A stretch of DNA of 64,000 nt from Streptomyces sp. SBT349 (GTDB lineage Bacteria > Actinomycetota > Actinomycetes > Streptomycetales > Streptomycetaceae), in NCBI RefSeq assembly GCF_001083795.1, contig NZ_LAVK01000003.1:1-64000 (forward strand), read 5' to 3'. The position numbers and the translations under genes are program-made. Of this stretch, positions 6,457 through 19,885 are shown in pieces (position 1 is the stretch's first letter; each line of letters starts with the position of its first letter). Below the pieces are notes generated by a model. That model was not told the DNA's origin, did not search any database, and saw only the letters and a list, made by a program, of their open reading frames with translations.

Positions 6457-6514
6457 CTCCTTCGAGCGCGATGGGCGATGTCCGCCCCCGTCCCGCCGCG
6501 GCACGCTCATTCCC

Positions 6515-7417
6515 ATGGCAATCATCGAAGTCAGCGGCCTGCACAAGGGCTACGCGGGAAGGAAGGCCGTCGACGGCGTGTCCTTCACCGTCGAGAAGGG
6601 AGAGATCTTCGGGATCCTCGGCCCCAACGGCGCGGGCAAGACCACCACGGTCGAGTGCGTGGAAGGACTACGGCGCCCCGACGCCGGCAGCGTCCGCGTG
6701 GCCGGGTACGACCCCGTCGCCGACCGCGACTCCGTCACCCGCATCCTGGGCGCGCAGCTCCAGGAGAGCGAACTACAGCCCAAGATCACCGTCAGGGAGG
6801 CGCTCGAACTGTACGCCGCCTGCTACCCGGACCCCGCCGACTGGCGCGCCCTCGCCGAGCGCCTCGGACTCAACGACACACTCCGCACCCGGTTCGCGAA
6901 GCTCTCCGGCGGCCAGAAGCAACGCCTGTCCATCGCGCTCGCCCTGGTCGGCAAGCCCGGCATCCTCGTACTGGACGAGCTGACCACCGGCCTCGACCCG
7001 CGAGCCCGCCGCGACACCTGGCGGCTCATCCAGGACATTCGCGACAGCGGGGTCACCGTGCTGCTGGTCACGCACTTCATGGAGGAAGCACAGCGCCTGT
7101 GCGACCGGATAGCCCTGATCGACAAGGGCCGGATCACCGCACTGGACACCCCGTCCGGGCTGATCGGACGCACCGCGGGCAGCACGGCGATCTCCTTCAC
7201 GCCCTCCGCCCCGCTCGACGTGCGGCTGCTGGCGGAACTGCCCTCGGTCGCGTCCGTGACGCACGAGGACGGCCGGATCGTGGTCAACGGCACGGACGAG
7301 ACGGTGCACGCCGTGCTCTCGCTGCTCGCCGGGCAGGGCGTCTCCGCCCACCAACTCCGCGTCACCGAGGCCACCTTGGACGACGCCTACCTCGACCTGA
7401 CGGGACCGGACGCATGA
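6515..7417 (+). CDS. ABC transporter ATP-binding protein, DrrA-like
   Basis: A 300-residue ATPase. Walker A is GPNGAGKTT (about residue 39), the Q-loop is in LGAQLQES, the signature is LSGGQKQRL (about residue 137) and Walker B is ILVLDELTTGLDP. In the Walker B context Leu stands where Pro is more usual, but the catalytic acidic residue is kept. The C-terminal 80 residues are the DrrA-type extension. It powers the permease encoded next (4-base overlap) and probably exports a drug, lipid or peptide. It heads an operon that continues into a two-component system, a common actinobacterial arrangement. Confidence 0.92.
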   Translation: MAIIEVSGLHKGYAGRKAVDGVSFTVEKGEIFGILGPNGAGKTTTVECVEGLRRPDAGSVRVAGYDPVADRDSVTRILGAQLQESELQPKITVREALELYAACYPDPADWRALAERLGLNDTLRTRFAKLSGGQKQRLSIALALVGKPGILVLDELTTGLDPRARRDTWRLIQDIRDSGVTVLLVTHFMEEAQRLCDRIALIDKGRITALDTPSGLIGRTAGSTAISFTPSAPLDVRLLAELPSVASVTHEDGRIVVNGTDETVHAVLSLLAGQGVSAHQLRVTEATLDDAYLDLTGPDA

Positions 7418-8202
7418 CCACGTTCAACCTCGGCCGCAACCCCGGCCGCACGGCGGCCGTCAAGGGCAGCGCCACCGCCGTCCTCAAGGCGGAGGGACGC
7501 CTGATCCTGCGCGAGCCCGCCGCCCTCTTCTGGGTGCTGGCCTTCCCCGCGATCCTGCTGTGCATCCTGGGCGCCATCCCCTCCAACCGGGAGCATTCGG
7601 CCGAACTGGGCGGCCTGCGCGTCGTGGACCTCTACGTCCCCGTCGCCATCCTGCTCGCCGTGATCACGGCCGGCCTCCAGACCATGCCGCCCGTCCTCAC
7701 CGGCTACCGCGAGCGCGGCATCCTGCGCCGCATGTCCAGCACCCCCGTGCGGCCCGGCTCCCTCATCGGCGCGCAGATCGCGCTGCACGGCGCGGCCATC
7801 GCGGTCTCCGCGCTGCTCGCCCTCGCCGTGGGCCGGATCGTGCTCGACGTGGCCCTGCCCCGCCAGCTCTTCGGATACCTGGTGGCGCTCGCTCTCGTCA
7901 CCCTGGCCACCCTGGCGCTCGGCGCCACCATCTCCGCCGTCTGCCGCACCACGAAGATCACCCAGGCAGTAGGCTCGGCGGTGTTCTTCCCGGCGATGTT
8001 CGCCTCCGGTGTCTGGCTGCCGGTCGCGGCCATGCCCGACGTGCTCCAGCGCATCGTGAGCCTCACCCCGCTGGGCGCCGCCGCACAGGCCCTCGACGAG
8101 GCCGCCGCGGGAGACTGGCCTGACTGGACACACCTGGGGGTCATGGCGCTGTGGGCGGTCCTGCTGATCGCCGCGGCCCGCCGCTGGTTCACGTGGGAGT
8201 AG
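7414..8202 (+). CDS. ABC-2 type transporter permease
   Basis: A 262-residue integral membrane protein with about six hydrophobic segments (for example ALFWVLAFPAILLCILGAI, VPVAILLAVITAGLQTM, LFGYLVALALVTLATLAL) and the ABC-2 signature region FFPAMFASGVWLPVAAMPD followed by LTPLGAAAQALDE. It forms the channel of the exporter with the preceding ATPase. The start ATG overlaps the ATPase stop (ATGA). The histidine kinase gene begins 8 bases after its stop. Confidence 0.9.
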   Translation: MTTFNLGRNPGRTAAVKGSATAVLKAEGRLILREPAALFWVLAFPAILLCILGAIPSNREHSAELGGLRVVDLYVPVAILLAVITAGLQTMPPVLTGYRERGILRRMSSTPVRPGSLIGAQIALHGAAIAVSALLALAVGRIVLDVALPRQLFGYLVALALVTLATLALGATISAVCRTTKITQAVGSAVFFPAMFASGVWLPVAAMPDVLQRIVSLTPLGAAAQALDEAAAGDWPDWTHLGVMALWAVLLIAAARRWFTWE

Positions 8203-8210
8203 CTCGTGCC

Positions 8211-9494
8211 ATGACGATGACGGTCGAGGAGCGCTGGGCGCAGTTCTTCCGGTACGGGCCGTACGCCCTGCTGGGCCTCGCCACGCTCCTCGGATCCGTG
8301 GCCGCCCCCCTGATCATGACCCGGTGGGAGATGTACGTCGCGGGGGCTCTGCTCCTCGCCACGCTGGCCGTGCAGGCGTGGTGGTCCCGGGCCATGCCGC
8401 GGCTGCTGGCGGCGGCCCCGGGCGAACACGCGGCCGACGCGGAACGGGGGGCCGGCACCCCGTTGCTGCCGGAGGGGACCACGGCCGGTCGCGTCTACTT
8501 CGTGCTGCGCACCGCCCTCGCCTTCGCCCTGACCTGGTTCAATTCCTTCTTCGCGATCTATGCCTGCCTCGGCTACTTCGACGCCGCGCAACTGCTGCCG
8601 CCGCGCGCCGCCCGGGCCGGGATCATGGTCACCGCCGTCGCCCTGGCGGGCTCCCAGTCCGGCGGACTGCCGCCGGACTCGCCGATGCAATGGGTGGTCT
8701 TCGGCGCGCTGCTCGTCTTCAACGCGACGCTCGCCATCAGCCTCAACCACCTCGGTGCCAAGGAGGCCGAGAAGGCCGAGGAGCGGGCCGAGACCATCAC
8801 CGCCCTGGAGAAGGCCCTCGCCGAGAACGCCGCCCTGCACGCCCAACTCGTCCTCCAGGCGCGGGAGGCCGGCGTCGCCGACGAGCGACGCCGCCTCGCC
8901 GCCGAGATCCACGACACCATCGCCCAGGGCCTGACCGGCATCATCGCCCAGCTCCAGGTGGTCTCCTCCACCGCCGATCCGGACCTGGCCCGCGAGCACG
9001 TGGGCCGCGCCCAGGCGCTGGCCCGCCACTCCCTGGGCGAGGCCCGGCGCTCCGTGGCGAACCTCTCTCCCGCCGCCCTGGAGCACGACACGCTCCCCGA
9101 GGCGCTGAAGAAGACCGTCGGCGAGTGGTCCGAGCGCACCGGCGTGGCGGCCCGGCTCACCGTCACCGGCACCGAGGAGCCGCTGCACGACGAGGTCGCC
9201 GCCACCCTCCTGCGGATCGCCCAGGAGGCCCTCGCCAACACCGGCCGCCACGCCCGCGCCGCCCGCGCGGGCGTCACCCTCTCCTACATGGGCGACGAGG
9301 TCACCCTGGACATACGCGACGACGGCCGCGGCTTCGACCCCCTCGCCGCGGCGACGCGCACCGGCAGCGGCGGCTTCGGCCTCGACGGGATGCGCGCCCG
9401 CGCCGAACGCATCGCCGGCACCGTCGCCGTCGAGTCGGAGCCGGGGCAGGGCACCGCGATCAGCGCCCGCGTACCGTTGGTGCGCCATGGCTGA
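8211..9494 (+). CDS. NarL-type sensor histidine kinase
   Basis: A 427-residue membrane kinase. The N-terminal half has about five transmembrane segments (GPYALLGLATLLGSVAAPLI to VVFGALLVFNATLAISL), then a coiled-coil EKAEERAETITALEKALAEN. The HisKA_3 phosphoacceptor is in AAEIHDTIAQGLTG, and the ATP-binding domain has DIRDDGRGFD and GFGLDGMRARAERI. The ATG at 8211 (MTMTVEERW) is chosen over an upstream GTG that would overlap the permease. It overlaps the response regulator gene by 8 bases, so the two form one signalling unit controlling the adjacent exporter. Confidence 0.92.
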   Translation: MTMTVEERWAQFFRYGPYALLGLATLLGSVAAPLIMTRWEMYVAGALLLATLAVQAWWSRAMPRLLAAAPGEHAADAERGAGTPLLPEGTTAGRVYFVLRTALAFALTWFNSFFAIYACLGYFDAAQLLPPRAARAGIMVTAVALAGSQSGGLPPDSPMQWVVFGALLVFNATLAISLNHLGAKEAEKAEERAETITALEKALAENAALHAQLVLQAREAGVADERRRLAAEIHDTIAQGLTGIIAQLQVVSSTADPDLAREHVGRAQALARHSLGEARRSVANLSPAALEHDTLPEALKKTVGEWSERTGVAARLTVTGTEEPLHDEVAATLLRIAQEALANTGRHARAARAGVTLSYMGDEVTLDIRDDGRGFDPLAAATRTGSGGFGLDGMRARAERIAGTVAVESEPGQGTAISARVPLVRHG

Positions 9495-10128
9495 CCGGAC
9501 CATCACGTTGCTGATCGTCGACGACCACCCCGTCGTCAGGGACGGCCTGCGCGGCATGTTCGCCTCCGATCCCGGCTTCGCCGTCCTCGGTGAGGCCGCG
9601 GGCGGTGCCGAGGGGGTCGAACTCGCCCTGCGCCTGGACCCGGACGTCGTCCTGATGGACCTGCGCATGCCCGCCGGCAGCGGCGTCGAGGCGATCGCCG
9701 ACCTCACCCGGCGCGGCGCCCGCGCCAAGGTCCTCGTCCTCACCACGTACGACACGGACTCCGACACCATCCCCGCGATCGAGGCGGGCGCCACCGGCTA
9801 CCTCCTCAAGGACGCGCCCCGCGACGACCTGTTCACGGCGGTCCGCGCCGCCGCCGAGGGCCGCACCGTCCTGTCGCCCGCCGTCGCGTCCCGCCTCGTC
9901 GGCGCCGTCAGGAACCCCGCCACCCCCGCGGCCGAGGTGCTCTCGGCCCGCGAGCGCGAGGTGCTCGAACTGGTGGCCAGGGGCACCTCGAACCGCGAGA
10001 TCGCCCGGGAGCTCTTCATCAGCGAGGCGACGGTCAAGACCCATCTGACCCATCTGTACAGGAAGTTGAGGGTCAACGACCGGGCGGCAGCGGTGGCCGT
10101 GGCGTACGACCGCGGCATCCTGGGCTGA
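9487..10128 (+). CDS. NarL/LuxR-family response regulator
   Basis: A 213-residue regulator. The receiver domain has the acidic pair in LLIVDDHPVV, phosphoacceptor Asp in VVLMDLRMP (about residue 56) and the conserved Lys in YLLKDAP. The C-terminal LuxR helix-turn-helix (about residues 148-205) has LSAREREVLELVARG and EATVKTHLTHLYRKL. It is the cognate partner of the upstream kinase and the last gene of the exporter operon. Confidence 0.95.
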   Translation: MADRTITLLIVDDHPVVRDGLRGMFASDPGFAVLGEAAGGAEGVELALRLDPDVVLMDLRMPAGSGVEAIADLTRRGARAKVLVLTTYDTDSDTIPAIEAGATGYLLKDAPRDDLFTAVRAAAEGRTVLSPAVASRLVGAVRNPATPAAEVLSAREREVLELVARGTSNREIARELFISEATVKTHLTHLYRKLRVNDRAAAVAVAYDRGILG

Positions 10129-10164: not shown

Positions 10165-10515
10165 TCAGCGGTGGCTCAGCACGTTGAGCACCCGGCCGTT
10201 GGGGTCACGGACGAAGAACCGCCGCACGCCCCACTCCTCGTCCTGGAGCGGATGGACGATGTCCGCGCCGCTCTCCTGCAGGGCGGCGTAGGCCGCGTCC
10301 ACGTCATCCACCTCGATGCTCATGTCGGGGATGACCGGGGCGGTTTCGTCGCTGGTCATGAAGCTGATCTGCGCCGCCGGCAGGGTGGGGGAGGCAAGCG
10401 TCATGATCCACCCCAGGTTCATGACCTCCTCGAAGCCCAGTCGGCCATAGAACTCGCGGCTCTCTTCCGCGGCGGCCTCCGACGGGACGACGGGCATGAC
10501 ACGGCGAACGGACAT
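10165..10515 (-). CDS. VOC-superfamily (glyoxalase/bleomycin resistance-like) protein
   Basis: A 116-residue single VOC domain: N-terminal SVRRVMPVVPSEAAAEESREFY, the middle strand MSIEVDDVDAAYAAL, and the C-terminal FFVRDPNGRVLNVLSH that ends most members. Such proteins are metal-dependent lyases, isomerases or dioxygenases, or bind antibiotics. It lies just downstream of the halogenase on the same strand, so it may be a tailoring or self-resistance function of the PKS locus, but it could equally be independent. ATG 10515 fits the family length. Confidence 0.85.
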   Translation of the reverse strand: MSVRRVMPVVPSEAAAEESREFYGRLGFEEVMNLGWIMTLASPTLPAAQISFMTSDETAPVIPDMSIEVDDVDAAYAALQESGADIVHPLQDEEWGVRRFFVRDPNGRVLNVLSHR

Positions 10516-10601: not shown

Positions 10602-12074
10602 TCATGGCAGGGTCCAGGCCAGACCGTCCGCGGTGACGGCGAGTCCCCCGGAGGCGGCGGGGCCGGGGTCGTCGAGCGGACCGCCGTACAGCGCCTGCTC
10701 CTGGAGCTCGTTGCCGGTACGGAAGGTCGCGCCGACGACCCGGGAGGAGAGCAGCGGATTGACGCGGTCGCCCGCGGTCGCCAACCGGCCCACCGCGCCG
10801 TCCAGTTCGGCCGCCGCGGAACGCCAGTGGGCGCCGAGCCGCTGGGTGCCGACCACCGCCGCGTCGCCGGACACCAGCCCGCCGGCCAGCTCGGCGAACG
10901 CGGCGGCCTCGCCGGTGTCCACCCGGGCCACCTTCTTCGCCGACCAGAAGTACGAGCGCTCGTCGCGTTCCATGTCGTAGAACGCCATGAGGAACTCGTA
11001 GAACACGGCGTACTCGCGGCGGTAGCGCGCCTCGAACTCGGCGAAGCCGCGCGCCTCGGGCACGCTGCCGTCCAGCGCGGCGTTCACCGCGCGGGCGGCC
11101 AGCAGGGCGCCGTAGGTGGCCAGGTGCACCCCCGAGGAGAGCACCGGATCCACGAAGCACGCGGCGTCGCCGACCAGCGCGACCCCGCGCGCCCAGAACG
11201 CCTTCTTCCAGTAGGAGTAGTCCTTGCGCACCCGCACCCGGTCGTAGGGTGGCTCGGTCGCGACCGGCACGTCCGCCAGCAGCCGTCCGACCTCGGGGCA
11301 GGCGCGGATCATGTCCCGCCAGGCGGCGCGCGGATCGCGCTGGACCGCCGGGGTGTGCTCCGGCGCGATGACGGCGCCGACGCTGGTCAGGTCGTCGCGC
11401 AGCGGGATGTACCAGAGCCAGCCCGCGTCGAAGGCGGCGCAGAAGATGTTGCCGCTGTTCGGCTCGGGGAGCCGGCGCCCGCCCGCGAAGTAGCCGAACA
11501 CGGCCAGGTTGCGGAAGAACTCGGAGTACACGCGCGCACCGCCGACCCGGCCGTGGATCCGGCTGGTGTTGCCGGACGCGTCGATGACGAAGGGGGCGTG
11601 CGCCGTGCGCGGGGTGCCCCCGGGGTCGGTGTACTCGACGCCGCGCACCCGTTCGCCGTCGGCCACCAGGCGCCGCACCGGGCTGCCCTCGCGGATCTCG
11701 ACCCCGGCGCGGCCCGCGTTGCGCAGCAGGATCTCGTCGAACCGGGAGCGTTCCACCTGGAACGCGGTCGCCGTCGGCTCGGGCAGGCGAGGCGTCATGG
11801 AGAAGGAGAACTGCCACGGCCGTGGGTCGCGCCCCCAGCGGAACGTGCCGCCGCGTTTGGGTGTGAAGCCCGCCCGGGCGACCTCGTCGGCGACGCCGAG
11901 GATGCGGCACAGGCCGTGCACGGTGGCGGGCAGCAGCGACTCGCCGATCTGGTATCTCGGAAACGTCTCCCGTTCCAGGAGCAGCACCCGGTGACCGCGC
12001 ATGGCCACGGCGGTCGCCGCGGTCGAGCCGGCCGGGCCGCCGCCCACCACGATCAGGTCGTAGTCCGGGGTCAT
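10602..12074 (-). CDS. FAD-dependent halogenase (phenolic/carrier-bound type)
   Basis: A 490-residue flavoenzyme that would use FADH2, oxygen and chloride or bromide to halogenate an electron-rich carbon. It shows the FAD motif VVGGGPAGST (residues 9-18), the halogenase hallmark GESLLP (44-49), a conserved Lys in TPKRGGTFRWG (Lys73, the expected haloamine-forming residue) and GWLWYI (218-223), which keeps flavin monooxygenases from hydroxylating. GDAACFVDP and SSGVHLA mark the FAD end region. The first ATG (12074) has a GGAGA site and lies 26 bases after the PKS stop, so the genes are almost certainly co-transcribed. The flavin reductase is not encoded nearby. Confidence 0.9.
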   Translation of the reverse strand: MTPDYDLIVVGGGPAGSTAATAVAMRGHRVLLLERETFPRYQIGESLLPATVHGLCRILGVADEVARAGFTPKRGGTFRWGRDPRPWQFSFSMTPRLPEPTATAFQVERSRFDEILLRNAGRAGVEIREGSPVRRLVADGERVRGVEYTDPGGTPRTAHAPFVIDASGNTSRIHGRVGGARVYSEFFRNLAVFGYFAGGRRLPEPNSGNIFCAAFDAGWLWYIPLRDDLTSVGAVIAPEHTPAVQRDPRAAWRDMIRACPEVGRLLADVPVATEPPYDRVRVRKDYSYWKKAFWARGVALVGDAACFVDPVLSSGVHLATYGALLAARAVNAALDGSVPEARGFAEFEARYRREYAVFYEFLMAFYDMERDERSYFWSAKKVARVDTGEAAAFAELAGGLVSGDAAVVGTQRLGAHWRSAAAELDGAVGRLATAGDRVNPLLSSRVVGATFRTGNELQEQALYGGPLDDPGPAASGGLAVTADGLAWTLP

Positions 12075-12100: not shown

Positions 12101-15100
12101 TCACCCGGCCGGCCAGGCGCGGATCGCCGCGGCCGTGGTGTCGGCGTCGCGGTGGACGAGGGAGTAGTGGTCGCCGGGGACGTCGACGACGTCGTGGGGC
12201 AGCGGCCAGTGCGGGCGCCAGTCCCGGTCGGCGTCGATCCGCCGCATCTCCGCCGTCGGCCGGCCGCGGAGCAGGAGGGCCGGAACCGGCGACGGTTCGG
12301 GGCGCCAGTCCTCCAGCACCCGCGCATAGCCACCGCCGGCGATCAGCAACGAGTCGTCGAACTGCTCGACCAGCTCGTCCGGCAGGGCGGCGCCGGCGGC
12401 CATCAGGGCCAGCGCCCGCGCGTCGTCGCGGCGCAGCACGCCGGCGTGCGAGTCGAGCAGGACCACGCCGGCCGGTGGCCGCCCCGCGCTCGCGAGGTAA
12501 CGGGCCACGGCGTGCGCGACGGCGCCGCCGGCGCAGAAGCCGACGAGGACGACCGGTCGGCCGGGCGACAGCGCGTCCACCGTGTCGGCGTGCGCGCGCA
12601 CCAGCGCGGCCACGCTGTCCGGTACCGCCCGGCGGCCGCCGAATCCGGGATGTTCCAGGAGGAACAGGTCGCGTTCGCCGTCGAACCGCTCGGCCAGGCC
12701 GGCGGGGACGCGGTGGTGGGGCGTGAGGTAATCCGGGATGTACGCCAGCGCGGTGCCCTCGCCACGGGCCAGCCGAACCGGGGGGACGGCATGCCGGGCG
12801 CGCTCGGCCGCGGCGAAGGACGGCACCGCGGAGGACGCGAAGTAGCGCAGCGCCATCGCCTCCAGCGGGCCCCGTTCGCGCAGGACCCGGTGGTAGACGG
12901 CGCTCAACCGGTAGGACGGCGGCGGAGCGTGGCTCTCGGCGTCGGGCCCTGCCCCCGCTTCGGCCCCGGTCCCCGGCAGGCCCCCGCCGTTTCGCAGCTC
13001 GGCGTGGACATGCGCGGCCAGCGCGGCGAGCGTCGGGTGGTCGAGAACGACCGTCGGCGCCAGCCGCACGCGCGTGAACGCGCTGAGCCGGTTGCGGACC
13101 TGCACCGCGGTCAGGGAGTCGAAGCCGAGCCGGCCGAACTCCCGGTCGGCGGGGAACGCGGACGGGTCCGGAAAGCCCAGCACCGCGGCCAGCTCGGCAC
13201 GGATCAGCTCGGTCAGCACGCTCTCGCGCTCCCGCGCCGGAACGGCGGCGAGCCGCTCGCGCCAGGCGCCGGGCGCCTGCGCGGTGGCCGACGGGGCGGC
13301 GCTCGTCCCCTCCGGAGACGGACGCGCACGCGCCAGGTCCGCCAGGTCCGCCAGGACCGGCGGTCCGGACGGGCCGCCGGCGGCCGCGGGATCCAGCGGG
13401 AGCGGCACCAGCACCGGCTCCGCACGGCGCAGCGCGGCGTCGAGCAGGCCGATGCCCTCCCGCTCGGTGACCGGCCGGATGCCGCCCTCGCCGAGACCGA
13501 GCGGCGCGACCCGGCCCGCCATTCCTCCGCCGTCCGCGGCGGACCACGGACCCCAGGCCAAGGATTGCGCGGGCAGGCCGCGGGCGACCCGGTGGCGGGC
13601 GAGCGCGTCGAGAAACCCGTTCGCGGCCGCGTAGTTCGACTGCCCCGGCCGGCCCAGCACGCCGGCGGCCGAGGAGTACAGCACGAACGCGGACAGCCCG
13701 AGATCCCTGGTCGCCTCGTGCAGATGCCAGGCGCCGTCCGCCTTCGGCGCCAGTACGGCCGCCACCCGGCGCGGGGTCATGGCGTCCACCACGCCGTCGT
13801 CCACCACCCCCGCGAGATGGAACACCGCGGTCAGCGCCGGTCGGCAGGCCGCGACCAGGGCGTCGACGGCCGCCCGCCCGCTCACGTCGCACGCCACCAC
13901 GGTCACGGTGGCCGGCAGATCGGCCACCCACGCGGGGACCCGGCCGCCGCGGCCGGCCAGCAGCAGATGGCGGACCCCGCGTTCGGCCACGAGATACCGG
14001 GCGAGGCTCGCACCGAGCCCGCCGGTGCCGCCGGTGATCAGGACCGTGCCCTCGGGATCCAGGGCGGGCGCCTCGGCGGTCCGCGGATCCGCGGCGGTCA
14101 GCCGGGGCACCAGGACGACGCCGTCGCCCAGCGCGACCTGGGGTTCGCCGGTGCGCAGCGCCGCGTCCAGGGCCTCCGGGGAGGCGGGACGGCCGCGGCG
14201 GTCCACCAGCGCCATCCGGCCGGGGTGCTCGGACTGGGCGCTGCGCACCAGCCCGGCGACCGCGGCCTCGGCCAGGTCCGGATCGTCTCCGGTGGCGTTG
14301 CGGGTGAGGATCAGCAGGCGGCCCGGCCGCGCGTCGGAGACCCAGTCGCGCACCCGCGCCAGCGTGGCCGTGACGAGGTCCCGGACGCGTTCGGGCAGGT
14401 CGGCGCCCTCGGGCAGGCCCGCGGCCAGGCGTGCAACGTCGAGCAGTTCGTGCTCCGCGCCCGCGTCGCCGGCCGGCGCGGCGGGCCGCCAGAGAGGCCG
14501 GTACACCTCGGCGCGGGTGGCGGGCACCGCGGGGATCGCCCGGGTGACCACGGACTCGATCGCGGCGAGTAGCCGGTCGGCCGGGTCGGTGAGGGTGATC
14601 CGGAACTCGTCCGGTCCCAGCCGCCGCAGACGGGCCCGCGCGGCGGTGGCACCGGTCGTGTACACGGTCACGCCGGTGCAGGCGAGCGGGGCCCGCGGCT
14701 CGTCCGGTCGTTCGGCCAGCAGCGCGGCGTGCAGCGCGGCGTCGAGCAGCGCCGGATGCAGGGCGTACGAGCCGGCGGTCGCCGCCTCCCCGGGCGGGAG
14801 CGCCACGTCGGCGAAGAGTTCCGCCCCACGGCGCCACAGGGCGGTCACCGCGCGGAACGCGGGCCCGTAGCGGTGGCCGTACGGGGCGAGGCCTGGGTAG
14901 TCGACCGGGATCTCCTCCGCGCCCGGGGGCGGCCACGCCCCCGGCGGAACGGCGGGTGGCGCGCCGGCAGGCGCGATCGCCGCGGTGGCGTGCCGGGTCC
15001 ACGGCCCCGTGGCGCCGGCGGTGCGGGCCCAGACGGTGACCGGGCGGGTCCCCGCCTCGTCCGCCGCGCCCGCGACCACCTGGACCCGCGCCGGATCGGC

Positions 15101-18100
15101 CCCGGAGAGGATCAGCGGCTCGTGAAAGGCCAGTTCGGCCAGGCGCACGGCGCCGGACGCCCCGGCCGCGCGGCAGGCCAGCTCGGCGAACACCGACGCG
15201 GGCACCAGTGTCCGGCCGCCGATCACATGGTCGGCGAGCCAGGGCTGACGGGCGGTGGACAGCACTCCCGTGTGCCGGACGCCGGGCCCGTCGGCGTCCG
15301 GCCGCTCCTCGCCCAGCAGCGGATGGCCGGCCGCGACCCGGTGCCGCGAGGCGTCCAGCCAGTAGCGCTGCCGCTGGAAGGGGTAGGTGGGCAGCGGGCG
15401 GCGACGGGCACCGCTGCCCGCGTACACCGCCCGCCAGTCCACCGGCACGCCGTGCACATGCAGGGCGGCCAGCGCCGCGAGCGTCGCGCGGGGGTCGGCG
15501 CACGCCGTGAACACCGCGCCCGCGTCCGGTGCCACGCACTCCTCCGCCGACACGCCGAGCGCGGCGGAGGGACCCGCCTCGACGAAGGCCGTGACCCCCT
15601 GGTCGGCCAGCCACTCCACCGCGTCGGCGAACCGGACCGTCTCGCGGACGTGCCGTACCCAGTGGTCGGCGGTGGCGAGCTCGTCCGGTTCGGGACGGCC
15701 GGTCACCGTGGACACCACCGGGACGGACGGCCGGTGGTAGGTCACCGACTCGGCGATCTCGCGGAACTCGGCCAGCATCGGGTCGAGCAGCGGGGAGTGG
15801 AACGCGTGGCTGACCCGGAGCCGGGTGGCCGGGTGGCCGATGCGGGCGGCCAGCTCGACCACCGCCTCCTCGTCGCCGGAGAGCACGAGGGACATCGGCC
15901 CGTTGACCGCCGCCACCGCGACCCGCCCGGGCACCTCGCCGAGCCGGTGCGCCACCTCGGCCAGCGGAGCGCGCACCGCGAGCATCGCGCCGCTGGCGGG
16001 CAGGGCGGCCATCAGACGGCCGCGCGCGGCGACCAGCCGTACCGCGTCGGCGCGGGAGAACACGCCGGCGAGGTGGGCGGCGGCCAGCTCACCGACCGAG
16101 TGACCGACCAGGTAGTCCGGTCGTACGCCGCACTCGGCGAGCAGCGCGTGCAGGGCGACCTCGAAGGCGAACAGCGCGGGCTGCGCGTAGTCGGTGCCGT
16201 CCAGCGGGCCGCCGTCGGGGTCGTCGATCACCTCCGACAGCCGCCGGTCGAGCCACGGCGTGAACGCCTCGCACACCTCGGTGAACGCCGCGCCGAACAC
16301 CGGGAAGGACGCGGCCAGTTCGCGGCCCATCCGGGCCCGCTGACCGCCCTGGCCCGCGCACAGCAGCGCCACCTTCGGCCTGCTCCGCGCGGTTCCCCGG
16401 TACAGCGCGGGGCTGCCGGTGCCCTCGGCCAGATCGCGCAACCCCGCCAGCAGGCCGTCGGCGTCGGCGGCCAGCACGGCCGCGCGGCGGGCCAGCGGCG
16501 CCCTGGTGGTCGCCAGCGAGTACGCGACATCCAGCGCGTCCTGTCCGGTCCGGCCGGTTCCGCCGGTTCCGCGGGTCCCGTCCGCGAGCGTGGCCGCCAG
16601 CTTCGCCGCGTGGGCGCGCAGACCGGCCTCGTCGCCGCCGCTGACCAGCCAGGGCCCGATCGGCAGGCGGCGCGCCGGCTCGGTCGGGCCCCGGCCGGAC
16701 CCGATGGCCGTGCCGGCGCCGGAGTCGACGCCGGAGTCGGCGTCGGCGCCGACGTCCGGCGGCTGCTCGATGATCACGTGCGCGTTGGTGCCGCCGATGC
16801 CGAACGAGGAGATCGCCGCCCGTCGCGGCCCCTCGCGCCGCGGCCAGGGCCGCGCCCGGTCGAGCAGCCGCACCGCACCGGCGGACCAGTCCACATGCGG
16901 CGACGGCTGCTCCGCGTACAGCGACCTGGGCAGTTCGCCGTGCCGCATGGCCTCGATCATCTTGATCACGCCCGCCACCCCGGCCGCGGCCTGCGTATGC
17001 CCGAGGTTCGACTTGACCGAGCCCAGCCACACCGGGTCGTCCGGGTCGCGGCCGGCGCCGTAGGTGGCCAGCAGGGCGCCCGCCTCGATCGGATCACCGA
17101 GCGCGGTGCCCGTGCCGTGTCCCTCGACCACGTCCACGTCCGTCCCCCGCAGTCCCGCCTCGGCCAGCGCCAGCCGGATCAGGTCGCGCTGCGCCTCGCC
17201 GTGGGGGGCGGTCAGCCCGTTGGACGCGCCGTCCGAGTTCACCGCGGAGCCGCGCAGCACGGCCAGCACCGGATGCCCGTTCCGCCGCGCGTCTGACAGC
17301 TTCTCCAGCAGCACCAGCCCGACGCCCTCGGCCCACGCGGTGCCGTCCGCGCCCGCCGCGAACGACCGGCACCGGCCGTCCGGGGACAGGCCGCGCTGGC
17401 GGCTGAACGCGATGAACGGCTGCGGGCTCGACATCACGGTCACACCGCCGGCGAGCGCGAGCGTGCACGCGCCCGCCCGCAGCGCCGCGGCGGCCAGGTC
17501 CATGGCGACCAGTGAGGAGGAGCACGCCGTGTCGACGGTCATGGCCGGGCCGCGCAGGCCGAGGACGTAGGAGATCCGGCCGGACGCCACGCTGCCCGAG
17601 GAGCCGATGCCGATGTGCGCCTCCAGCTCGTGCGCCGACACGCGGCTGCCGTAACTGGCGTGCATCAGGCCGACGTACACCCCGGTGTCGGTGCCCCGCA
17701 AGGACGGCGCGGGAATGCCCGCGCGTTCCAGCGTTTCCCAGGCGACCTCCAGGAGCAGGCGGTGCTGGGGGTCCGTGGCCAGCGCCTCGCGCGGCGAGAT
17801 GCCGAAGAACAGCGGGTCGAAGTCCGCCGCGGCGCTGAGGAATCCGCCGCGCCGGGTGTACGTGGTGCCGATCCGGTCCGGGTCGGGATGGTGCAGGGCG
17901 GCGACGTCCCAGCCGCGGTCGGTGGGGAAGTCGCCGGTGGCGTCCACGCCCTCGGCCACCAGCCGCCAGAGATCCTCGGGCGAGTCCACCCCGCCCGGGT
18001 AACGGCAGCCGACGGCCACGATCGCCACCGGCTCGGCGTCCGGCCCGCGCCGCGGCGACGCCGTCGCGGGGGCGCCGCCGTGCAGCCGGGTGTCCAGGTA

Positions 18101-19885
18101 GGCGGCGACCTCGGCCGCGGTCGGGTGGTCCCAGACCAGCGTCGCCGGCAGCCGCAGGCCGGTGCGCAGGCCGAGCCGGTGCCACAGGGTCATCGCGTCC
18201 AGTGAGGTCAGCCCGAGATCGGCGAAGGACGTGCCGGCGTCCGGGGCGCCCGGCTCGGCGGCCGTCCCGCGGACGGCCGCGGTCTCCGCGCACACCAGGG
18301 CGGTCAGCGCGGCCCGCCGCTCGCCGGGCGTCCGGTCGGCCAGCCGCGCGAGCGCCGGCTCGGCCGGACGCGCGGCGAGCGCCTCGCGCAGCACCGCCCG
18401 CCGCGGCTTGCCCCCGGCGGTGCGCGGAACGGCGGGCGTGAACAGGACGTCCTCGGGCACCTTGTGCGCGGACAGCACCGTGGCGCACGCCCGCAGCAGG
18501 CCCGCGGGATCGAGCGTCTGCTCCGCCGGGACCACGAACGCCACCGGGACCTCGCCGAGCAGGGGATGCGCCCGAGCGACCACGGCCGCGTCGCGAACGC
18601 CGGGCAGGCCGAGCAGCACCTGTTCCACCTCGGCCGGGTCGACGTTCTCGCCGCCGCGTACGATCCGGTCGTTCACCCGGCCGGTGACGGTCAGACGGCC
18701 CTGCTCGTCGAGCCGTCCCAGGTCACCGGTGTGGTACCAGCCGTCGCGCATCGCCTCGGCGGTGGCCTCGGGCCGGTTGTGGTAGCCGAGCATGAGGCCG
18801 GGACCGCGCACGCGGATCTCGCCCTCGGCGCCGGTCGCGTCCCGGCCCGTCCCCGGATCGACCAGCCCGATGTCCATGCCGGGGACCGGCGGCCCGCTGC
18901 CGCCGGGCGGGCGCGGCCCGTCGACCGTCTCCATGGCGATCTTGCCGCAGGTCTCGGTGCTGCCGTAGCCGTCGAGCAGCGGGGCGCCGAACCGCCCCTC
19001 GACCCGCTCCCGCAGCTCCGGGTCGCTGGGCGCGCCCGCGGTGACGCACAGCCGCAGCGAGGGCACCGCGCCCAGCCCGGCGTCGAGCAGCCGCAGATAG
19101 GTCAGCGGCACGCCGCACAGGACGGTCGGCGCGAACTCACCGATGAGCCGTACCAGTTCCGCCGGGTCCGGTGACGCGGTGATCCGCGCGGTCGCCCCGG
19201 CCACGGTCGTGCCCAGCACGCAGAGCGAGTGGGCGTAGGTGTGCGCCAGCGGCAGGGGCCAGAGCAGGCGGTCCGTCGCCGACAGCCCGAGCCGCGGTCG
19301 GTAGCAGGCGACCGGGGACCAGAGGGCCGAGCGCTGGCTGGCCACCGCGGCCCTGGGCGCCCCGGAGGTGCCGGACGTGTAGAGCAGCCACGCCGGATCG
19401 TCCAGGGCGAGGTCGTCACGGGGCGCGGCCGGCCCTTGGGTGGCGAGGGCCTCGAAGTGCGAGACGGTGTCCGGCGCCGCGCCCTCACCGGTCACCACCA
19501 GGCGCGGAGACCGGCCGGCGGTCACCCGGGCTATCCGCGGCAGGTTCCGCCGGTCGGTGACCAGCACGGCCGGATCGCAGTCCTCCCAGAGCGCGGCGAG
19601 TTCGGCGTCGGTGCCGCGGGGGCTCAGCGGCACGCCGACCGCGGCGGCCCGGACGGTGGCGAGGAGGCCCTCGACGAGCTCGACGCCGTCGTCCAGGCAG
19701 AACGCCACCCTGGCGCCGCGGTCGACGTCCAGCCCCGCCGCCAACCGGGCGGTCCTGCGCTCCAGTTCCGCCCAGCTCACCCCGCGCCGGTCGTCGGTGA
19801 ACGCGAGCTTCCCGCCGTGCCGTGCGGCGTTGTCGGTGAGCAACTCCGGGACGGGCCGGACCTCGATCGCTTCCGCCGCATCCAT
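12101..19885 (-). CDS. Self-contained hybrid acyl-ligase/type I polyketide synthase, AL-ACP-KS-AT-DH-KR-ACP-TE
   Basis: A 2594-residue megasynthase. Domains: acyl-AMP ligase, residues 15-500 (LYTSGTSGAPRAA; RGGENVDP); loading ACP 530-600 (LGLTSLD, Ser561); KS 617-1045 (Cys788 in DTACSSS, His923, His963); AT 1170-1480 (GHSVGE, Ser1263; HAFH at 1360, hence malonyl-CoA); DH 1520-1790 (His1553 in HVIGGRTLVP, Asp1715 in HPALLDAALH, YGHRYGPAF); KR 1945-2130 (GGTGGLG; VDD at 2028-2030, a B-type indicator; Tyr2085); ACP 2215-2295 (LGFDSL, Ser2257); TE 2370-2594. No enoylreductase. The TE elbow reads GFCAGG, so Cys2451 replaces the usual Ser, with Asp2478 and His2573 as likely partners. It activates an unknown carboxylic acid, extends it with malonate to an unsaturated chain, once or iteratively, and releases it. 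ATG 19885 follows a GGAGG site. Confidence 0.93.
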   Translation of the reverse strand: MDAAEAIEVRPVPELLTDNAARHGGKLAFTDDRRGVSWAELERRTARLAAGLDVDRGARVAFCLDDGVELVEGLLATVRAAAVGVPLSPRGTDAELAALWEDCDPAVLVTDRRNLPRIARVTAGRSPRLVVTGEGAAPDTVSHFEALATQGPAAPRDDLALDDPAWLLYTSGTSGAPRAAVASQRSALWSPVACYRPRLGLSATDRLLWPLPLAHTYAHSLCVLGTTVAGATARITASPDPAELVRLIGEFAPTVLCGVPLTYLRLLDAGLGAVPSLRLCVTAGAPSDPELRERVEGRFGAPLLDGYGSTETCGKIAMETVDGPRPPGGSGPPVPGMDIGLVDPGTGRDATGAEGEIRVRGPGLMLGYHNRPEATAEAMRDGWYHTGDLGRLDEQGRLTVTGRVNDRIVRGGENVDPAEVEQVLLGLPGVRDAAVVARAHPLLGEVPVAFVVPAEQTLDPAGLLRACATVLSAHKVPEDVLFTPAVPRTAGGKPRRAVLREALAARPAEPALARLADRTPGERRAALTALVCAETAAVRGTAAEPGAPDAGTSFADLGLTSLDAMTLWHRLGLRTGLRLPATLVWDHPTAAEVAAYLDTRLHGGAPATASPRRGPDAEPVAIVAVGCRYPGGVDSPEDLWRLVAEGVDATGDFPTDRGWDVAALHHPDPDRIGTTYTRRGGFLSAAADFDPLFFGISPREALATDPQHRLLLEVAWETLERAGIPAPSLRGTDTGVYVGLMHASYGSRVSAHELEAHIGIGSSGSVASGRISYVLGLRGPAMTVDTACSSSLVAMDLAAAALRAGACTLALAGGVTVMSSPQPFIAFSRQRGLSPDGRCRSFAAGADGTAWAEGVGLVLLEKLSDARRNGHPVLAVLRGSAVNSDGASNGLTAPHGEAQRDLIRLALAEAGLRGTDVDVVEGHGTGTALGDPIEAGALLATYGAGRDPDDPVWLGSVKSNLGHTQAAAGVAGVIKMIEAMRHGELPRSLYAEQPSPHVDWSAGAVRLLDRARPWPRREGPRRAAISSFGIGGTNAHVIIEQPPDVGADADSGVDSGAGTAIGSGRGPTEPARRLPIGPWLVSGGDEAGLRAHAAKLAATLADGTRGTGGTGRTGQDALDVAYSLATTRAPLARRAAVLAADADGLLAGLRDLAEGTGSPALYRGTARSRPKVALLCAGQGGQRARMGRELAASFPVFGAAFTEVCEAFTPWLDRRLSEVIDDPDGGPLDGTDYAQPALFAFEVALHALLAECGVRPDYLVGHSVGELAAAHLAGVFSRADAVRLVAARGRLMAALPASGAMLAVRAPLAEVAHRLGEVPGRVAVAAVNGPMSLVLSGDEEAVVELAARIGHPATRLRVSHAFHSPLLDPMLAEFREIAESVTYHRPSVPVVSTVTGRPEPDELATADHWVRHVRETVRFADAVEWLADQGVTAFVEAGPSAALGVSAEECVAPDAGAVFTACADPRATLAALAALHVHGVPVDWRAVYAGSGARRRPLPTYPFQRQRYWLDASRHRVAAGHPLLGEERPDADGPGVRHTGVLSTARQPWLADHVIGGRTLVPASVFAELACRAAGASGAVRLAELAFHEPLILSGADPARVQVVAGAADEAGTRPVTVWARTAGATGPWTRHATAAIAPAGAPPAVPPGAWPPPGAEEIPVDYPGLAPYGHRYGPAFRAVTALWRRGAELFADVALPPGEAATAGSYALHPALLDAALHAALLAERPDEPRAPLACTGVTVYTTGATAARARLRRLGPDEFRITLTDPADRLLAAIESVVTRAIPAVPATRAEVYRPLWRPAAPAGDAGAEHELLDVARLAAGLPEGADLPERVRDLVTATLARVRDWVSDARPGRLLILTRNATGDDPDLAEAAVAGLVRSAQSEHPGRMALVDRRGRPASPEALDAALRTGEPQVALGDGVVLVPRLTAADPRTAEAPALDPEGTVLITGGTGGLGASLARYLVAERGVRHLLLAGRGGRVPAWVADLPATVTVVACDVSGRAAVDALVAACRPALTAVFHLAGVVDDGVVDAMTPRRVAAVLAPKADGAWHLHEATRDLGLSAFVLYSSAAGVLGRPGQSNYAAANGFLDALARHRVARGLPAQSLAWGPWSAADGGGMAGRVAPLGLGEGGIRPVTEREGIGLLDAALRRAEPVLVPLPLDPAAAGGPSGPPVLADLADLARARPSPEGTSAAPSATAQAPGAWRERLAAVPARERESVLTELIRAELAAVLGFPDPSAFPADREFGRLGFDSLTAVQVRNRLSAFTRVRLAPTVVLDHPTLAALAAHVHAELRNGGGLPGTGAEAGAGPDAESHAPPPSYRLSAVYHRVLRERGPLEAMALRYFASSAVPSFAAAERARHAVPPVRLARGEGTALAYIPDYLTPHHRVPAGLAERFDGERDLFLLEHPGFGGRRAVPDSVAALVRAHADTVDALSPGRPVVLVGFCAGGAVAHAVARYLASAGRPPAGVVLLDSHAGVLRRDDARALALMAAGAALPDELVEQFDDSLLIAGGGYARVLEDWRPEPSPVPALLLRGRPTAEMRRIDADRDWRPHWPLPHDVVDVPGDHYSLVHRDADTTAAAIRAWPAG

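Follow-up and report, generated by a model that had tools for sequence, protein, structure and literature searches.

In the terminal thioesterase (TE) of a single-module polyketide synthase (PKS) from Streptomyces sp. SBT349, a cysteine, Cys2451, stands at the nucleophile position that is usually held by serine, and it is conserved throughout the TEs of a clade of orthologous PKSs. A natural, clade-fixed Ser-to-Cys PKS TE appears to be new, whereas an engineered version and Cys TEs of nonribosomal peptide synthetases (NRPSs) are already known. Our main reading, to which we assign a probability of about 70%, is that the PKS and its neighboring halogenase form a unit, that Cys2451 would carry the chain as an acyl-thioenzyme and pass it to water or to a small hydroxyl or amine nucleophile, and that this Cys arose from Ser within the PKS family. 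All positions without a locus name refer to the window, i.e. the whole stretch of 64,000 nucleotides that was analysed.

The PKS gene lies on the minus strand at 12101-19885, starts with ATG at 19885 and encodes 2594 aa with the Pfam domain order AL-ACP-KS-AT-DH-KR-ACP-TE; the window itself shows an uninterrupted frame from AL through TE, and the presence of this series on one protein places the PKS in the single-module AL-PKS family. The AL (acyl-AMP/CoA ligase) loading domain (18407-19837, minus strand as are all domains that follow; PF00501/PF13193) has FadD13 (3r44, E=3.7e-58) as closest solved chain, and its near solved chains comprise FadD13, malonyl-CoA synthetase and aryl-CoA ligases, among which the substrate call is not decisive. 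PF00550 matches two stretches of the PKS, the first ACP (18086-18358, approximate limits, with an LGLTSL motif) and the second ACP (13007-13207, residues 2227-2293). Between them lie the ketosynthase (16736-18034, PF00109/PF02801; motifs DTACSS, HGTGT and NxGH), the acyltransferase (15554-16363, PF00698) with a HAFH motif that we take to be malonyl-type, the dehydratase (14486-15325, C-terminal limit approximate, PF21089/PF14765; DHxxxxRxxxP) and the ketoreductase including its N-terminal structural part (13526-14485, PF08659/PF22953; NY[AS]AAN). The KS, AT, DH and KR motifs, whose readings are general knowledge, are kept in 17 of 17 aligned clade rows. Given the usual motifs in the upstream domains and the malonyl-type AT, an enoyl acyl chain is expected, or else a polyene in the case of iteration. 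The terminal TE (12104-12898, PF00975), assigned by its match to the DEBS TE, an AlphaFold2 model and fold matches, follows the second ACP at the C-terminus, as in type I PKS cis TEs.

The TE elbow motif of the window PKS is LVGFCAGGAVAHAVA. A phmmer search with the TE matched 21 PDB sequences, of which the DEBS TE is the closest (E=1e-26), and the alignment pairs Cys2451 (codon TGC, 12533-12535, minus strand) with the Ser of the DEBS elbow GHSAGA, Asp2478 (GAC, 12452-12454, minus strand) with the Asp of VVLIDVYPP and His2573 (CAC, 12167-12169, minus strand) with the His of VPGDH. The three aligned DEBS residues are the established DEBS catalytic triad. The AlphaFold2 model of the TE was built on 8 sequences (mean pLDDT 72.8, pTM 0.78; residues 17-37, 85-91 and 170-190 below 50) and places Cys122 (model numbering) at the elbow between strand 117-121 and helix 123-137, Asp149 after strand 144-148 and His244 after strand 236-243. 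The top Foldseek match of this model is the DEBS TE, and the best fold matches in VIA-align are likewise PKS TEs, namely FluC from fluvirucin (Z 23.8), juvenimicin (23.4) and DEBS (23.2). The TE thus has the order nucleophile-Asp-His, with the Asp after the strand that follows the nucleophile helix and with Cys2451 in place of a serine, which is usual in type I PKS cis TEs and does not define them. The original prediction had named Cys2451 as the nucleophile, with Asp2478 and His2573 in their expected places; its coordinates and residue numbers are correct in a translation from the ATG at 19885 on the minus strand, and all three placements are borne out by the alignment with DEBS and by the model, which puts the Cys in the predicted triad position. 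From this position we infer that Cys2451 serves as the catalytic nucleophile.

A scan of the genome collection yielded seven Streptomyces loci of this kind (L008-L014), and of 391 other genomes sampled from the genus, 11 had an ortholog (E<=1e-60); a class-wide search added L076 and a query with the ligase domain added L155. With duplicates removed (L029 of L010, L032 of L013), the clade comprises 19 loci including the window. A TE is present in 18 of them, and Cys, Asp and His are all kept in 18 of 18 (one of these from G671), at 69-84% identity to the TE of the window. The Cys is therefore no artefact; a sequencing error or frameshift at this codon is ruled out by the 17 further clade TEs with Cys. 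The domain order is the same in the other 18 loci with three exceptions. L155 (in a region of G373, a genome with 8% contamination) has no TE, the halogenase following directly after ACP2 (6628-6824 of that locus), while PKS and halogenase are kept. In L011 an in-frame stop interrupts the linker between ACP and TE (9780-10010); the triad residues of the TE are still present, and no halogenase was found downstream. L076 has a break in its PKS frame close to the KS end (about 6507-6527), owing to decay or to an assembly error. In L012, the halogenase is a fragment only (10814-11130). Given the missing TE in L155 and the stop in L011, it may be that the TE is dispensable or that the two copies are in decay.

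Among related PKSs Cys is exceptional: with duplicates removed, Ser is present in 72 of the 73 TEs read outside the clade, the lone exception being L126, in line with the earlier statement that Cys-type TEs are rare in PKSs. A TE profile search covered 394 genomes of the class; of its 30 best loci, which were read, 4 were clade members and had Cys, and the other 26 had Ser; the three nearest Ser loci belong to PKSs of the same architecture as that of the window. The ligase query (E<=1e-110) hit a related AL domain in 105 of 392 genomes of the genus, that of the window among them. From these, 56 regions were fetched, picked mainly by frame length with some of similar length (e.g. in G363) left out, and together with L073-L076 they gave 60 regions, 14 of which yielded no TE. 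In the 46 regions with a readable TE we counted 44 Ser and 2 Cys, one in the clade member L076 and one in L126. Ser is likewise present in each of five additional TEs from the genome of the window, one of them being a match of 90 residues only; L006 gave no TE row. L047-L049 duplicate L073-L075 and were counted once, yet remain as rows in the TE tree. L126, a region of G253, reads GVCTGG at the elbow and is a second Ser-to-Cys change, seen in one genome, in a sister PKS accompanied by a halogenase. As sister PKSs of the same architecture otherwise carry Ser, the Cys is a derived state. The loci L110-L164 represent a large Streptomyces family of PKSs that have a single module in the order AL-ACP-KS-AT-DH-KR-ACP-TE and share few neighboring genes.

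The TE tree, of 87 rows, supports the Cys clade with 100/100 on a stem of 1.21 changes per column, and every row outside the clade has Ser except L126, which falls inside a Ser group of 27 rows (100/93). The KS tree (77 rows) recovers the same clade (100/100, stem 0.35) and puts L126 among Ser PKSs (99/97), and in the halogenase tree (29 rows) L126 groups with Ser loci. Because L126 stands among Ser loci in all three trees, it is simplest to regard Ser as ancestral and Cys as having arisen twice; there thus seem to be two independent Ser-to-Cys origins, the second in a single genome. Stems of the sister groups are 0.26 and 0.19 for the TE versus 0.16 and 0.084 for the KS; since sister TEs also outpace their KSs, the stem of the Cys TEs is only about 1.5 to 2 times as long as this ratio would lead one to expect. 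The clade TE has diverged more than the other domains of the PKS. Mean TE identity is 38-39% between the Cys clade and the Ser groups and 48% between the two Ser groups, whereas the corresponding values are 71-73% and 75% for the KS, 58-59% and 63% for the AT, and 54% and 59% for the AL. This comparison covers 15 Cys loci, 14 and 23 Ser loci and L126, and left out the window, L011, L012, L155, L125, L152, L164 and distant rows. Fifteen diagnostic TE columns part the clade from its sisters, the Cys included, e.g. 2480 (H for Y) and 2493 (A for W), in an analysis that left out the distant TE rows L134, L139, L149, L158 and L161. L126 has the Cys alone of these 15 in common with the clade; the Cys can therefore appear without the other TE changes of the clade.

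In the mechanism that we propose, the AL domain would load a carboxylic acid onto ACP1 and KS-AT-DH-KR would add one or more malonyl units, in a single round or iteratively, to give the enoyl chain, and the halogenase would chlorinate the acid or else the chain once it is bound to the ACP. With His2573 and Asp2478 activating it, Cys2451 would then take the chain from ACP2 by thioester exchange, so that an acyl-S-enzyme forms in place of the usual acyl-O-enzyme, and the chain would leave on water or on a small nucleophile with a hydroxyl or amine group. Together with the halogenase next to it, the PKS would act as a two-gene unit, and the Cys would have arisen from Ser inside the Streptomyces family of single-module AL-PKSs. 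A thioester intermediate at Cys2451 appears most likely, since the Asp is canonical and a Ser-to-Cys pikromycin TE is the nearer precedent; judged by sequence, products of hydrolysis, ester, amide and thioester exchange would all be compatible.

The strongest competitor, at somewhat less than even odds in our view, is that the exchange is close to neutral, i.e. that the TE is an ordinary hydrolase releasing the free acid with Cys doing the work of Ser. The canonical triad positions fit this view, as does L126 with its Cys in an otherwise Ser-type TE, and according to the accessible text of PMC11934086 a RufT TE changed from Ser to Cys was loaded better, cyclised less and still mainly hydrolysed its substrate. 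What speaks against near-neutrality is the retention of the Cys in all 18 clade TEs, at 69-84% identity with the window's TE, together with the long TE stem and the 14 other diagnostic columns. A further counterexample comes from ObiF1, where replacing the Cys by Ser reportedly left only the hydrolysis product (PMC6668435, available in part). A bolder version of the main reading holds that the clade fixed the Ser-to-Cys change together with a remodelled active site, that the chlorinated enoyl chain would go to a specific amine, alcohol or thiol acceptor and not be released as free acid, and that a second lineage has begun the same course; we put this forward tentatively, as a possibility that is probably not the case.

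The halogenase is the second gene of the conserved unit (10602-12074, minus strand) and is flavin-dependent by its matches to PF04820 and PDB 3e1t, the latter annotated 'Halogenase' and matched with E=7.9e-151 over residues 5-489. We take 3e1t to be CndH of chondrochloren biosynthesis, and since the halogenase is closest to this protein, its likeness suggests a chlorinated product. A WxWxIP motif is present in 29 of 29 halogenase copies and the dinucleotide-site pattern in 27 of 29. A stop-free halogenase follows the PKS in 17 of the 19 clade loci. Stop-free halogenase matches of 464-492 residues, 62-67% identical to that of the window, also lie beside the PKS in 12 loci of one Ser sister group (L126 included), and none was found beside the PKS in the other Ser group of 14. 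As the 12 sister loci also carry one, the halogenase does not track the Cys. Downstream of the halogenase a small glyoxalase/bleomycin-resistance-like protein (PF00903) is encoded at 10165-10515 on the minus strand, and the pair is adjoined at 6515-10128 on the plus strand by an ABC transporter ATPase, an ORF that looks membrane-like by eye, a histidine kinase and a response regulator.

In 17 compared loci, the genes common to at least three were the PKS, the halogenase and one block in three close relatives, as read with an ORF caller that fused or overlooked some genes and, for instance, hid the type III PKS of L008. No further gene was common to more than three of the family loci, and the SDR gene, two-component system and transporters of the window had no match, at the chosen cut-offs, in the 18 ortholog loci, which span about 20 kb. 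A larger conserved cluster was on this basis rejected. Since nothing else recurs apart from the block in close relatives, the PKS-halogenase pair is a conserved unit in varied surroundings. No other conserved acceptor gene was seen in the compared loci either, and this, with L155 keeping PKS and halogenase in the complete absence of a TE, would suit a proofreading (editing) role for the TE, with release taking place elsewhere or spontaneously. We consider such a role improbable, as the domain is a C-terminal cis TE, closest to PKS release TEs in sequence and fold, and is kept in 18 of 19 loci.

The link to obafluorin found no support in the form drawn in the original prediction. Were the DH skipped, a β-hydroxyacyl chain could in principle be closed to a strained ring (β-lactone) as in obafluorin or sulfazecin, and the Cys at the nucleophile position and the KR would be in accordance with this. 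In ObiF and SulM, however, the Cys nucleophile is combined with an Asp that is shifted to a later strand, 'position II', as described in the accessible parts of PMC6668435 and PMC11298585; both are NRPS enzymes with strained-ring chemistry and share with the window TE the Cys at the nucleophile position. Asp2478 instead pairs with the Asp of DEBS, directly behind the strand that comes next after the nucleophile helix, and LLLRGRPTAEM, where by our placing a position-II Asp would be expected, contains no Asp. Membership in the ObiF/SulM type was therefore rejected and the analogy is weak, since these enzymes place the Asp elsewhere. The apparently intact DH should moreover remove the β-hydroxyl, and neither ObiF nor SulM is named among the 21 PDB matches of the TE; they are not named among 50 fold-match rows either, which proves nothing. 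Taken together, we regard a β-lactone as very unlikely.

Least probable of all is that the unit makes lagunapyrones, which to our knowledge carry no halogen, by passing the chain to a type III PKS: such a gene was found in only 1 of 64 sequences searched, the MP131-18 ortholog L008 itself, and L008 is among the 17 of 19 clade loci with a halogenase after the PKS. The proposal goes back to an in silico analysis of Streptomyces sp. MP131-18, in which cluster 3, with SBA_00390 as single-module PKS and SBA_00389 as type III PKS, was assigned to lagunapyrones (PMC5301196, accessible text), and L008 indeed has a type III PKS and an ICMT-type methyltransferase gene (1105-2920 of that locus) divergent from the PKS ortholog. 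As these neighbors match the published description, the L008 genes very probably are SBA_00390 and SBA_00389. The accessible text of PMC5301196 on cluster 3 makes no mention of a halogenase, a ligase domain or a Cys TE, and the published lagunapyrone assignment of this ortholog looks doubtful.

Several precedents were sought in the literature. For a PKS TE with a GYCAGG or GFCAGG elbow there was none in a search covering few subscription papers, and no monomodular PKS with halogenase and ligase was found. Wider matches on Cys TEs were, as far as the available texts go, ObiF, SulM and a Pks13 structure paper; a solanimycin paper was discarded as precedent because the cysteine described there belongs to the KS. 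Iterative monomodular PKSs of Streptomyces do exist, as cited in the accessible text of PMC8622039. The PKS-halogenase unit would represent a compact two-gene pathway, for which we found no proven product in the literature. A study by Wang and others (PNAS 2020) is said to deal with iterative monomodular PKSs of Streptomyces and may cover relatives of the single-module AL-PKS family. Protein engineers have introduced Ser-to-Cys changes into TEs to obtain better catalysts of cyclisation or acylation. The natural Cys clade, its Ser sisters of the same architecture and L126, a relative that differs mainly by the Cys, constitute a ready experiment on why a TE uses Ser or Cys and on which changes must accompany the swap.

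Compared with known systems, the halogenase shares with 3e1t the match over residues 5-489, but no other part of the chondrochloren pathway was found beside the PKS. The TE has fold, triad order, canonical Asp position and C-terminal cis placement in common with the TEs of DEBS, pikromycin, juvenimicin and fluvirucin. The latter three use Ser, as does DEBS by alignment, and identity to the window TE is about 30%. With a single module, a long-chain macrolactone is unexpected unless the PKS iterates. The same layout of Cys and usual Asp is seen in the NRPS TE AB3403 (4zxh; PMC11298585, accessible part), an uncharacterised enzyme that matches the window TE weakly (E=1.1e-7). The engineered pikromycin TE of Koch et al. 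2017, as cited in the accessible texts of PMC6668435, PMC11760250 and PMC11934086, is a nearer precedent than the obafluorin TE: it shares with the window TE the Ser-to-Cys swap in a PKS TE with canonical triad, but it is man-made and acts on a macrocyclising substrate, whereas the window TE is natural, clade-fixed and accompanied by further changes.
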